Assembly: GCA_945868845.1 (NCBI GenBank)
Contig: CAMBMS010000012.1
Span: 1 to 64,000, forward strand
Length of the DNA: 64,000 bases
DNA from: Asaia bogorensis
GTDB lineage: Bacteria > Pseudomonadota > Alphaproteobacteria > Acetobacterales > Acetobacteraceae
Direction of reading: 5' to 3'
Positions 12,407 through 16,613 of this stretch are shown in pieces. Numbering within the stretch: the first letter of the stretch is position 1; each line of letters opens with the position of its first letter. The position numbers were made by a program, and so were the translations under genes. Under the pieces are notes generated by a model. It was not told the origin of the DNA. It saw only the letters and a program-made list of their open reading frames with translations, and did not search any database.

Positions 12407-12499
12407 AGTAAAAGGGGTGTGGGGGATGATTATCCCATGGCTGGGTGCAGGGGTAGGGCCCCTGCCGGAGGCCAAGGGGCGGCCCCCCCATCCTTCCTC

Positions 12500-13033
12500 A
12501 TGAATCCCGCCTGGCACATTCGCACCGCGCGGCTGAATTTGGCGCCGGTGGGGTGGAGGGATTTGTCCGACCTGGTGGCGATCAAGGGCGATCCGGGCGT
12601 GTATGCGGTGATGTTGGGTGGGGTGCGGAGTTTCGCGCGGGTGGCGGAGGAGCTGGCGTCGGATATCGCGGATTGGGGGGCGTTGGGTTATGGACTATGG
12701 GCGGTGTGCGATATTGACGCCCGGGTGTTTCGCGGCCTGACGGCGTTGCAAGCGCGCCCGGATGGGCGCGGCGTGGCGCTGCGGTTTGCGTTTTGGCCGG
12801 ACGGGCAGGGCAGGGGTTTAGCGCGGGAGGCCGCGGGGGCCGCGTTGAGATTCGGGCATGATCGGGCGGGGTTGCGCCGGATCGTGGCGGTGGCACGTGA
12901 TGAAAATATCGCCTCGCGCATGGTATTGGGAAGTATTGGCATGATCGAGGCGGAGCGGTTTACCCAGGCCGGCCATGCCATGGTGCTGTATGAGAGCGTG
13001 AGGCTTTCACCGGCGCGGGCGCAGTCCGTATAA
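12500..13033 (+). CDS. GNAT-family N-acetyltransferase (RimJ/RimL-like)
   Basis: 177-aa acetyltransferase of the RimJ/RimL type: the N-terminus HIRTARLNLAPVGWRDL is the classic beta1-alpha1 opening, and the acetyl-CoA pyrophosphate loop is FWPDGQGRGLAREAAGAALRFG (given here in parts of a longer segment, about residues 90-115), followed by RRIVAVARDENIASRMVLG. The substrate cannot be told; ribosomal-protein N-termini or small molecules are both possible. The start at 12500 fits the family; the frame is open upstream but without homology. It lies 8 nt before the hldD-like gene and may be co-transcribed. Confidence 0.8.
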   Translation: MNPAWHIRTARLNLAPVGWRDLSDLVAIKGDPGVYAVMLGGVRSFARVAEELASDIADWGALGYGLWAVCDIDARVFRGLTALQARPDGRGVALRFAFWPDGQGRGLAREAAGAALRFGHDRAGLRRIVAVARDENIASRMVLGSIGMIEAERFTQAGHAMVLYESVRLSPARAQSV

Positions 13034-13041
13034 GGCATCGC

Positions 13042-14007
13042 ATGTTCATGCTCGCCGGCGGCGCTGGCTTCATTGCGTCCAACCTGTATGCCGGCCTAGT
13101 TGTGCTGGGGCGTGAGACGGTGATCGTCGATCGGCTGGGTACGGACGATAAATGGCGCAACCTTGCCAAGCATCCACCGGCGCGATTGATCGCCTCCGAG
13201 GCGTTGGACGATTTCGTTGCCAGCCATCCGCCGCTGGAGACGGTGTTTTATCTGAGCGCGGCCAGCGATACGGCGGTGATCGACGCCGATCTGAGCTGGG
13301 TGGTGAATGTGCAGACATCGCTCGCTTTGTGGCGCTGGTGCGGCGCACGTGGCGTGCAGTTTATTTATACCTCATCCGCGGCTATCTATGGCGATGGCTC
13401 GGCGGGTTTTGACGGCGATGCATCGGTAGTGGTGCTCGATCCCTTGCGGCCACTGAACCTGGATGGTTGGACCAAGGAGGTGTTCGATCTGCGCGTCGTG
13501 CGCATGGTTGCCGCTGGCGAGGCGCGGCCACCACAATGGGCGGGGCTCAACTTCTTCAATGTCTATGCCTTGAGCGAGTATCACAAAGGCATGGCCTTGG
13601 TCGTGAAGACCAAGCATCACGAGACCCCGGCAGGTCGCGCGCCGCAGTTGTTTCGTTCCGAACACTCCGATATCGTCGATGGTGGGCAGCAACGTGATTT
13701 TACCTGGGTGAAGGATACGGTGGATATGTTGCTTTGGTCTCTCGATAACCCTGGTGCGAATAGCCTGCTGAACGCCGACATCGGACAGGCGCGCAGCTTG
13801 CTCGATATGGCGCATGCGGCTTGTGTGCCGTGCAATGTGGAATGCATCGACATGCCGGAGAGCCTGCACGGAAAATATCAATCTTTCACGCAGGAAACTG
13901 CGACCAAACTTTGCGTGGCCGGACATGCACGCCAGCCAACGTCGCTGGAGGGCGGTGTTCGCTACTATGCGCGCGATTACCTGATGCAATCGGATACGCA
14001 CCGATGA
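13042..14007 (+). CDS. hldD: HldD-like ADP-heptose epimerase with altered active site
   Basis: The 321-aa product aligns along its length with ADP-L-glycero-D-manno-heptose 6-epimerase, which makes the LPS inner-core heptose donor (FIYTSSAAIYGDG, WTKEVFDLRV, NFFNVYALSEYHKG, RDFTWVKDTVDMLLW, GKYQSFTQET). Key positions are changed: the third glycine of GxxGxxG is Ala12; the YGxxK motif reads DGWTK, so the catalytic Tyr is Asp141 (Lys145 kept); VYGP is VYAL; and the GTG of the sugar-site loop is ADI. The frame is intact and overlaps lgt by ATGA. It may be an early pseudogene or a protein with changed function. Activity as an epimerase is doubtful. Confidence 0.75.
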   Translation: MFMLAGGAGFIASNLYAGLVVLGRETVIVDRLGTDDKWRNLAKHPPARLIASEALDDFVASHPPLETVFYLSAASDTAVIDADLSWVVNVQTSLALWRWCGARGVQFIYTSSAAIYGDGSAGFDGDASVVVLDPLRPLNLDGWTKEVFDLRVVRMVAAGEARPPQWAGLNFFNVYALSEYHKGMALVVKTKHHETPAGRAPQLFRSEHSDIVDGGQQRDFTWVKDTVDMLLWSLDNPGANSLLNADIGQARSLLDMAHAACVPCNVECIDMPESLHGKYQSFTQETATKLCVAGHARQPTSLEGGVRYYARDYLMQSDTHR

Positions 14008-14807
14008 GCGCACCGCTGCAATTCCCCCATATCAGCCCGAATTTGATCGAGATTGGGCCGTTCGCGATTCGCTGGTATGCGCTGGCTTATATCGCTGGTT
14101 TGGTGCTGGGCTGGCAAATGCTGCGCCGGCTGGTGGGGCACGCGCCGGCCGTGGCGATGCGCGAGCAGGCCGATGATTACCTCACGTGGGCGACCTTAGG
14201 TGTCGTTTTTGGTGGGCGCCTGGGTTATGTGCTGTTCTATCAGCCAGCTCGCTTTATCGGCGCGCCCTGGGAATCTTTCGCTGTCTGGCAGGGGGGCATG
14301 AGTTTTCATGGCGGTTTGCTGGGTGTGGCGCTGGCGACGATTATTTTCTGTCGGCGTAACGGAATTTCGGTGCTGGACTTCGGTGATCGTCTTGTGGTTG
14401 GGGCACCGATCGGATTGTTCTTTGGCCGGTTGGCGAATTTCATCAATGGGGAATTATGGGGACGTCCCGCGGCGGAGGGCTTGCCTTGGCGGATGGTGTT
14501 TCCGCATGTGGACCCCCTGGCGCGCCATCCCAGCCAGATTTATCAAGCATTACTGGAAGGGGTGGCGCTATTTGTCGTGCTGTGGCTGCTGTCACGGCGT
14601 ACTAGCCTGCGTGCGCGTACTGGATTTCTGACCGGCATTTTTGCTGTTGGTTATGGGGTCGCGCGAATCATTGGGGAATTGTTTCGCCAGCCCGATGCGT
14701 TCCTCGGGTTTCTTTACGCCGGTGCCACCATGGGTCAGTTACTTTCGCTGCCTATGCTCATCGTCGGTCTTTGGCTGATCCTGCGCTCGGGTCGGAAACT
14801 CGCGTGA
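14004..14807 (+). CDS. lgt: Prolipoprotein diacylglyceryl transferase
   Basis: Membrane enzyme that transfers diacylglycerol from phosphatidylglycerol to the lipobox cysteine of prolipoproteins, the first lipoprotein-modification step. The 267-aa product has about seven hydrophobic helices, IRWYALAYIAGL near residue 22, the substrate-binding HGG segment (GGMSFHGGLLGV), and the Lgt signature GRLANFINGELWGRP with the essential Arg and Asn. The start at 14004 overlaps the hldD-like stop by ATGA, and the stop overlaps the next GTG start (GTGA), so translation of the three genes is coupled. Confidence 0.96.
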   Translation: MSAPLQFPHISPNLIEIGPFAIRWYALAYIAGLVLGWQMLRRLVGHAPAVAMREQADDYLTWATLGVVFGGRLGYVLFYQPARFIGAPWESFAVWQGGMSFHGGLLGVALATIIFCRRNGISVLDFGDRLVVGAPIGLFFGRLANFINGELWGRPAAEGLPWRMVFPHVDPLARHPSQIYQALLEGVALFVVLWLLSRRTSLRARTGFLTGIFAVGYGVARIIGELFRQPDAFLGFLYAGATMGQLLSLPMLIVGLWLILRSGRKLA

Positions 14808-15790
14808 GCGAGCGGCTGGATCAATTTATGGCCCGCGCTAACGCTACCTATTATGCAACGCGGGATCCGTTTGCTGACTTTACCACCGCTCCGGAGCTTT
14901 CGCAGGCATTCGGGGAAATTCTTGGCCTGTGGGCCGCGATCGTCTGGCAATCGATGGGGCGCCCCGATCCGGTGATCTTCGCCGAGGCTGGGCCTGGGCG
15001 GGGTACGCTGATGGCCGATGCCTTGCGGGCCATTCATCGAGCGGCACCGGATTTTTCCGCAGCACTGTGCCTGCATCTGGTGGAGATATCGCCGCGCTTG
15101 CGCACCATTCAGGCGGGCAAGCTGTCGCGGGTCACGTGGCATGGAACGCTGTCAGATATTCCAACGGGCCCGATGATCCTGCTGGCCAATGAATTCCTGG
15201 ATGCCCTCCCGCTCCGCCAGTTCATCAACCGTGGGGCTGGCTGGATGGAACGTTTCGTCCGCGATGGCGTCTTCGTCGAATATCCCGCTGATCTGCCCGC
15301 GTGCGGCCCGCCAATCGGCGCACAAGAGGGCGTGGTGGTGGAAATCTGCGAACCCGCCCTTGCCATCGCGGCCGAACTAGGCGCGCGGTTGTCCTGTCAG
15401 GGTGGTGCCGCGCTGTTCGTCGATTACGGGCCAGAAAATTCTACCGTGGGTGAAAGCCTGCAGGCGCTGCGCGATGGCGATCCCGCCGACCCGTTGGCCA
15501 ATCCCGGAACCGCCGATCTGACGGCGCACGTCGATTTTTCTGCCCTTGCCAGCGTGGCGCGTGCTGTTGGGGCCAGCGCGTATGGCCCCGTCGCACAAGG
15601 AAAATTTCTCACCCGCCTTGGCCTGATGCCACGCAGTATCGCCTTGGCGCGCGGCCTTCCGCCTCGTCAGGCGGCCGCCATGATGCAGACCGCGCAACGT
15701 TTGACCGAACCCGACCAGATGGGCCAGCTGTTCAAGGCGCTGGCGGTTTGCCATCCGGGCTTGCCCACTCCCCCCGGTTTTGAGGCATAA
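14804..15790 (+). CDS. MidA/NDUFAF7-family SAM-dependent methyltransferase
   Basis: 328-aa protein of the DUF185 family, whose mitochondrial member NDUFAF7/MidA dimethylates an arginine of complex I subunit NDUFS2; the bacterial substrate is usually unproven. Visible features are ATYYATRDPFADFTTAPELS near the N-terminus, the SAM-binding EAGPGRGTLMADALR (about residues 63-77), ANEFLDALP (the family acidic loop) and LFVDYGPE. The GTG start overlaps the lgt stop; an internal ATG at 14829 would shorten it by 8 residues. lgt, this family and pgeF are consecutive in many alphaproteobacteria. Confidence 0.88.
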   Translation: MSERLDQFMARANATYYATRDPFADFTTAPELSQAFGEILGLWAAIVWQSMGRPDPVIFAEAGPGRGTLMADALRAIHRAAPDFSAALCLHLVEISPRLRTIQAGKLSRVTWHGTLSDIPTGPMILLANEFLDALPLRQFINRGAGWMERFVRDGVFVEYPADLPACGPPIGAQEGVVVEICEPALAIAAELGARLSCQGGAALFVDYGPENSTVGESLQALRDGDPADPLANPGTADLTAHVDFSALASVARAVGASAYGPVAQGKFLTRLGLMPRSIALARGLPPRQAAAMMQTAQRLTEPDQMGQLFKALAVCHPGLPTPPGFEA

Positions 15791-15797
15791 GGCGGGC

Positions 15798-16613
15798 GTG
15801 GCGATCTCCCTCACACCTTCGGCCTTTGTCCTGCCCGCCCTTGCCGTGGCGCATGGGTTCTTTGGCCGACGGGGCGGGGTTTCGACGGGGCCCTACGCAA
15901 GCCTGAATTGCGCTTTTTCCGGTCAGGACGATCCGGCGGCAGTGCGTGAAAATCGTGCACGCGCCGCGTGGGCACTCGGGGTCGATCCCGCCAATCTGGT
16001 GGGTGTGCATCAAGTTCATGGCGCCCTGGCGGTGACGGTCCGCGAAGCCTGGGCGCCTGGAGCAGGCCCCAGGGCCGATGCGATGGTCACGGATCGGCCG
16101 GGATTGGCGTTGGGCATCATCACCGCCGATTGTGCCCCGGTGCTGTTTGCCGATGCCGATGCCGGGGTGATCGGCGCGGCGCATGCCGGCTGGCGTGGCG
16201 CACTGGGCGGGGTGCTGGAAGCCACCCTGGTGGCGATGGCGACATTGGGCGCGCGGCGGATCCGGGCGGCGATCGGGCCATGTATCGCGCAGGCTTCCTA
16301 TGAGGTGGGGCCGGATTTGCGCGATGCTATTTTACCCCGCGATGCCGGGGATGTGAGGTTTTTCGGGCATGGCCAACGGGAGGGGCGCTGGCAGTTTGAT
16401 CTGCCCGGCTACTGCAACGCCCGGCTACGCGCCGCAGGGATAGGCGATATCGGCATTGTGGCGGCCGATACCTGTGCGCGGGAGGAAGAATTTTTCAGCC
16501 ATCGCCGCCGTATGCTGGCCGGTGGTGGGCCGATCGGGCACCAAATCTCGGTGATTACCCTGGCTGGCGGCGCTTTGGCCGGTGGTACTTCGGGGGCGGC
16601 ATGCCCTATCTGA
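15798..16613 (+). CDS. pgeF: PgeF/YfiH-family laccase-domain peptidoglycan editing factor
   Basis: 271-aa protein of the multicopper-like DUF152 fold. Members remove UDP-MurNAc-L-Ser mis-made by MurC or act as purine nucleoside phosphorylases/deaminases. The zinc/copper ligands are all present: His74 in GVHQVHG, Cys112 in ITADCAPVLF and His129 in AAHAGWRGAL. GRRGGVSTGPYASLN near residue 24 is the family opening, and CIAQASYEVG the middle motif. The GTG at 15798 is preferred, 7 nt after the midA stop; a TTG at 15780 is the alternative. Confidence 0.88.
   Translation: MAISLTPSAFVLPALAVAHGFFGRRGGVSTGPYASLNCAFSGQDDPAAVRENRARAAWALGVDPANLVGVHQVHGALAVTVREAWAPGAGPRADAMVTDRPGLALGIITADCAPVLFADADAGVIGAAHAGWRGALGGVLEATLVAMATLGARRIRAAIGPCIAQASYEVGPDLRDAILPRDAGDVRFFGHGQREGRWQFDLPGYCNARLRAAGIGDIGIVAADTCAREEEFFSHRRRMLAGGGPIGHQISVITLAGGALAGGTSGAACPI

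Follow-up and report, generated by a model that had tools for sequence, protein, structure and literature searches.

The consequences of losing HldD, the ADP-glyceromanno-heptose 6-epimerase, have been described in several bacteria. The HldD-deficient S. sonnei 4351 carries D,D-heptose, according to the available excerpt of PMC9600226, and rfaD mutants of E. coli and H. influenzae are said, in the accessible part of PMC3577681, to do the same. As far as these two partial texts go, the D,D-heptose cores of the enteric and Haemophilus mutants undergo no further extension, and hldD mutants of C. jejuni have neither heptose in the core. D,D-heptose is also contained in the LOS of Kangiella japonica, as stated in an extract of PMC12472108. 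With regard to gene arrangement, the portion of PMC6728339 at hand reports strict coupling for 13 of the 14 cases of overlapping gene pairs that were tested there.

A literature search with phrases on lack or loss of hldD gave no occurrences among the matches listed, and a search combining HldD with the catalytic tyrosine gave no title on natural loss of the Tyr. HldD is widespread in the family studied here, with a match at E < 1e-50 in 56 of 60 genomes. Among them are the genome of Asaia bogorensis, from which we analysed a stretch of 64,000 nucleotides (hereafter the window; contig CAMBMS010000012.1, positions 1 to 64,000, forward strand), and that of the sister species (G001); the 100 genomes searched include no third member of the genus.

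Results

The frame begins with an ATG at 13042, ends with a TGA at 14005–14007 and encodes a 321 aa protein, with no internal stops or frameshifts. The match to the ADP-glyceromanno-heptose 6-epimerase profile spans residues 3–314, nearly the full length, while the TIGR02197 score of 238.9 bits lies below the curated cut-off of 274.6; the HldD of the sister species, about 70% identical, scores 338.4 bits. The original prediction had described an intact hldD frame carrying Asp141 (GAT), Ala12 and a VYAL loop, and this is what the sequence contains, the sister being canonical at all the sites named. It had also reported a GTG loop changed to ADI; the loop is indeed altered, but it reads DIG (Asp246-Ile247-Gly248) and the preceding Ala is shared with the sister. 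The features of the frame are as follows.

13042–14007, + strand: hldD-derived open frame, 321 codons, predicted to be catalytically dead (TIGR02197 score below cut-off; synteny with the sister)
13054–13077, + strand: NAD-binding loop with T5A (13054–13056) and G12A (13075–13077), both sites invariant in 63 other HldD
13249–13257, + strand: HxGA motif with H70Y and G72S (64-protein conserved-column comparison)
13462–13464, + strand: codon 141, GAT (Asp) in place of the catalytic Tyr, at the position of Tyr140 in the E. coli enzyme (1eq2)
13567–13575, + strand: FNVYGPNE loop with G176A, P177L and N178S (64-protein conserved-column comparison)
13777–13782, + strand: GTG loop with G246D and T247I, now DIG (alignment with the sister and relatives)
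about 13819–13831, + strand: in-frame deletion of four residues (12 nt) when compared with the sister's hldD (the alignment shows a gap following about residue 261)

The equivalence of Asp141 to E. coli Tyr140 was counted from the alignment with 1eq2. Both the Tyr and the Lys of the YxxxK motif are present in 104 of 105 HldD, the sister's included, with the window protein as the lone exception; these 105 comprise two truncated proteins (L065, which stands outside the 64-protein alignment, and L149) and are not all independent, as some species may occur in both genome sets. The GxxGxxG nucleotide-binding loop is not canonical either, its third Gly being Ala12 and Thr5 being replaced by Ala. Further changes, L233S, F268C and F299P, are core-like as judged by residue type.

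In a leave-one-out comparison of 64 proteins, 62 columns are near-invariant, with conservation of 97% or more among the sequences other than the window's. The window HldD is altered at 16 of them, compared with 0–5 in each of the 63 others. Among the 16, residue 110 is altered in the sister too and one other is a deletion. Over the whole protein, 63 columns depart from the family consensus in the window lineage alone (59 substitutions and four deleted residues). With this many changes, the first stage of decay proposed in the original prediction understates how far it has gone.

The surroundings of the gene are shared with the sister. The run GNAT-hldD-lgt-midA-pgeF (names other than hldD and lgt were assigned by eye) is syntenic between the two genomes by tblastn, and the order hldD-lgt-midA, with pgeF where the stretch is long enough, recurs in further relatives.

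12419–13033, + strand: GNAT-like frame upstream of hldD (tblastn synteny with the sister)
14004–14007, + strand: ATGA overlap of the hldD stop (14005–14007) with the lgt start (14004–14006), seen in the sequence and the same in the sister
14004–14807, + strand: lgt, prolipoprotein diacylglyceryl transferase (TIGR00544, 226.4 bits, cut-off 118.9), with no acceleration
14771–15790, + strand: midA-like frame, downstream control gene (synteny; translation probably begins further inside the ORF)
15780–16613, + strand: pgeF-like frame, downstream control gene (synteny)

In the tree of 64 HldD, the window and sister proteins form a clade with an ultrafast bootstrap of 100. The window hldD is a vertical ortholog and a native gene, a foreign origin being ruled out by synteny and tree. 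Its terminal branch measures 0.357, compared with 0.089 for the sister and a median of 0.221. The ten longest terminal branches (at least 0.391) belong to other sequences, and at least nine other HldD have longer terminal branches than the window's, yet lack a comparable loss of conserved columns.

Selection was compared along branches with a custom codon model (F3x4, branch-specific omega, five taxa). The omega estimates for hldD are 0.252 (window branch), 0.055 (sister branch) and 0.123 (remaining branches), absolute values that are rough as synonymous change is near saturation on these long branches; equality of window and sister is rejected (LR 9.19, p 0.0024), and so is omega = 1 on the window branch (LR 11.6, p 0.0006). 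Among the six genes tested hldD alone is accelerated, with likelihood ratios for window versus sister of 0.12 (lgt), 0.79 (midA), 0.11 (pgeF), 0.16 (a hypothetical gene) and 0.08 (hldE) in the controls. Since the branch-average omega is below 1, only a recent or partial release of hldD fits, and a history of constraint at the level of the sister or the background, followed by release, would place the release over about 15–21% of the window branch.

We then counted the columns altered solely in the window lineage and those altered solely in the sister, against a consensus of 29 other HldD (L003–L030 from the same family, plus Roseicella). Window-only and sister-only changes number 21 versus 2 among the 112 columns of class A (at least 96% conserved), 15 versus 4 among the 65 columns conserved at 80–96%, 20 versus 7 among the 89 at 50–80%, and 7 versus 4 among the 58 below 50%. 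A fixed-fraction model, in which release is regardless of conservation and the sister supplies the ordinary rates, fits these data with f = 0.185 (chi2 0.82, p 0.84), the expected values from class A downwards being 22.2, 14.0, 18.2 and 8.5 for the observed 21, 15, 20 and 7. A proportional speed-up of every class fits badly (chi2 22.5); the contrast of class A with the rest is, taken alone, non-significant (Fisher p 0.13). The excess of changes is independent of site conservation and is not aimed at the active site. The original prediction had all changes confined to near-invariant sites and the remainder of the protein aligning well; in this respect it does not hold, more variable sites having changed in excess to the same degree.

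The spectrum and severity of the changes were also determined. The window lineage has 44 single-step changes, 31 of them transitions, as against 2 of 13 in the sister lineage; 25 of the 44 go from GC to AT and 11 from AT to GC. When the sister's hldD was subjected in silico to unconstrained random mutation until 20 class-A columns were altered, 40–42 columns with a consensus of at least 50% were changed, with a mean BLOSUM62 of −0.63 to −0.77. The corresponding columns of the window hldD hold 53 substitutions with a mean of −0.45, of which about 13 would be ordinary divergence, going by the sister's count (13, mean +0.38). In severity, the changes roughly match those of the unconstrained simulation.

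The expectation that a decayed hldD should have gathered many stops proved wrong, the simulated mean being just 1.6–3.6 overall and 2.3–3.6 on the way to 16–20 conserved changes. At that level of change, the chance of zero stops in 321 codons is 0.034–0.126 in the neutral simulation, which covers substitutions; frameshifts would lower the chance of an open frame. The open frame is mildly unexpected, and hence weak evidence for protein function.

This evidence would suit a new, non-epimerase role, as a pseudoenzyme or on a new substrate, for which the active-site changes would be adaptive, and the replaced catalytic-site residues and a branch omega below 1 point the same way. The excess, however, is spread evenly over the four conservation classes, and none of them is spared (a small conserved patch could be missed). 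The severity is close to that of random mutation and includes the core-like L233S, F268C and F299P, the Tyr is replaced in none of the 104 other HldD, and the old role would have been given up without a covering duplicate. We consider such a role improbable; of the two outcomes proposed originally, it is decay that has good support, and the new role is unsupported, given an excess that is even across classes.

The rest of the genome, a draft of 49 contigs, contains no second HldD above the TIGR02197 cut-off, and nine other matches reach 19–85 bits. The best of them is an SDR epimerase adjoining a gmhA-like gene on contig C8, in a cluster near the contig end that comprises the SDR, the gmhA-like gene and a nucleotide-sugar epimerase (L085:7849-10577). 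The cluster is common to another genome, G015, with identities of 74% (SDR), 77% (gmhA-like) and 61% (epimerase). The sister genome, at 85% completeness, yielded no full counterpart of the gmhA-like gene, its GmhA match being just weak and partial (1.2e-4). Both the neighbourhood of gmhA-like gene and SDR epimerase and the weak match in the sister would be in line with an unrelated enzyme of this kind having taken over the epimerase step and made hldD redundant. Against this, the C8 epimerase is closest to 5u4q (labelled dTDP-glucose 4,6-dehydratase) and to the 6zl6 epimerase group, and none of the best 60 of 118 matching chains bears the name heptose 6-epimerase; G015 moreover has the same cluster alongside a canonical HldD (L006). 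The C8 epimerase as a replacement is unsupported by these structure matches and this coexistence, and we regard a takeover of the step as unlikely.

Other steps of the heptose pathway are represented in the window genome. HldE is a full two-domain protein, both domains scoring above cut-off (TIGR02198, 360.6 bits; TIGR02199, 194.2 bits), and its lineage-only counts for window versus sister are 1 versus 1 of 89 columns, 2 versus 3 of 75, 8 versus 5 of 138 and 15 versus 12 of 165, from the most conserved class downwards. Had hldE been released together with hldD, 16.5 of the 89 conserved columns should have changed instead of one (P about 1e-6). A HAD-family phosphatase on contig C14 scores 111 bits, above the cut-off of TIGR01656, a family that we take to include GmhB; none of its 18 conserved columns is altered (3.3 expected under release), a weak test with so few columns. 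A KdtA-type transferase (PF04413) is located on contig C10 and a single GT9 transferase on contig C6, with matches in 33 genomes out of 40, counting its own. This GT9 protein reaches none of the three heptosyltransferase cut-offs (I, II and III), and 5 of its 71 conserved columns are altered, compared with 13.1 expected and 0–10 in other genomes, the comparison being made without a sister sequence. Besides window and sister, these comparisons used a subset of the relatives matched, 24 for HldE, 20 for GT9 and 14 for GmhB. Decay of the whole pathway is ruled out for hldE, and the GmhB-type phosphatase and GT9 are without excess change.

The gmhA-like gene on contig C8 scores 153.7 bits, below its family cut-off of 209. 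Strong GmhA matches (TIGR00441, E < 1e-40) are sparse in the family, in just 14 of 36 genomes (G000–G035), and PF13580 agrees (10 of 22 family genomes searched, E up to 1e-10); the second HldE domain scores above cut-off in 34 of the same 36. One family member, G020 (92% complete), lacks a strong match to either HldE or HldD; its GmhA and its GmhB-type phosphatase are encoded on the same contig, separated by about 750 bases, and it possibly has another activated-heptose route. GT9 matches number one in the window genome (G000), none in the sister (85% complete) and 2–17 in the other 34 family genomes listed; in G004, G007, G011, G016 and G017, GT9 relatives have one TGA inside the matched stretch, possibly the frame end.

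Discussion

The even spread of the excess, its random-like severity, the transition-rich spectrum and an acceleration confined to hldD together lead to the conclusion that constraint on the HldD protein has been lost, recently. Among the features of a pseudogene, the gene shows an excess of changes independent of conservation, and neither a dN/dS near 1 nor stops or frameshifts. It is probable that the sole hldD found in the window genome encodes a protein recently released from selection as ADP-glyceromanno-heptose 6-epimerase. To judge from its sequence, the enzyme would be inactive. The protein does keep the catalytic Lys of YxxxK (Lys145) as well as the SSA and RDF motifs, as would a still working HldD with Asp141 in place of the Tyr; with a Tyr that is otherwise universal among the HldD compared, with Gly12, Gly176, Pro177, Gly246 and others also gone, and with a score below the family cut-off, this is very unlikely. 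A sequencing or assembly error is extremely unlikely, as the 63 lineage-only columns lie over the whole gene and in frame, and the tested neighbours on the same contig evolve normally.

With constraint on the protein probably lost, the frame may be open partly by chance if the release was recent, and it is probably also held open by the ATGA overlap with the lgt start. In well-studied Gram-negative bacteria the Lgt enzyme is essential. No GGAGG-like ribosome site was seen by eye just 5' of the lgt ATG. Frame breaks in hldD would cut lgt translation and carry a cost, and missense changes would be free. The spacing of hldD and lgt as an ATGA overlap is found in 9 of 24 relatives' loci with lgt in reach, window and sister included, the lgt start being extrapolated from the alignment in some of the nine. 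We tentatively propose that hldD may serve as a translational relay, its frame selected for an ATGA-dependent lgt start and its decay restricted to missense changes, with ADP-D,D-heptose as the final donor.

The original prediction had linked decay of hldD to loss of LPS heptose. The conserved hldE, together with the presence of the GmhB-type phosphatase, the KdtA-type transferase and one GT9, leaves this unsupported: with HldE, the GmhB-type phosphatase and GT9 showing no comparable decay, use of D,D-heptose appears likelier than heptose loss. From the gene content, the pathway would most likely persist in a form that lacks its last step, and ADP-D,D-heptose would most likely be the product left.

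Gene loss of this kind is ordinary; here it is seen early in its course. If the reading is right, it provides a clean natural example in which the enzyme at the end of a pathway is lost under full constraint on an earlier one (HldE), at a time when no stop or frameshift has yet arisen. Gene callers would go on annotating hldD, and its unbroken frame could wrongly be taken as a sign of an L,D-heptose pathway. Under this reading, one species within a mostly HldD-bearing family should have a D,D-heptose envelope, and the locus lends itself to testing whether the start of an overlapping gene can protect a dead gene's frame.

The closest known system is the HldD family itself (structures 1eq2, 2x6t and 4ej0), to which the window protein is homologous over nearly its whole length, and its gene adjoins lgt as in most relatives looked at; it differs in having lost the catalytic Tyr, the NAD-loop Gly and both the GPN and the GTG loop, with a score below the curated cut-off. 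Loss of HldD function, predicted here, was shown for the gmhD frameshift mutant S. sonnei 4351 in the available text of PMC9600226. That mutant was obtained by laboratory mutagenesis, and its D,D-heptose core was seen, whereas the change in the window hldD is natural, by missense and with an open frame, and a D,D-heptose envelope is predicted for the species. The drop in score without a frame break (238.9 versus 338.4 bits) resembles the delta-bitscore divergence of bacterial orthologs outlined in the part of PMC5181535 accessible to us, to which relative-rate, spectrum and simulation tests on one gene are added here. Finally, the stop of hldD and the start of lgt share bases in the way coupled by ATGA in the excerpt of PMC6728339, with the difference that here the part of such coupling in keeping the frame of a dead hldD open is predicted from the sequence.
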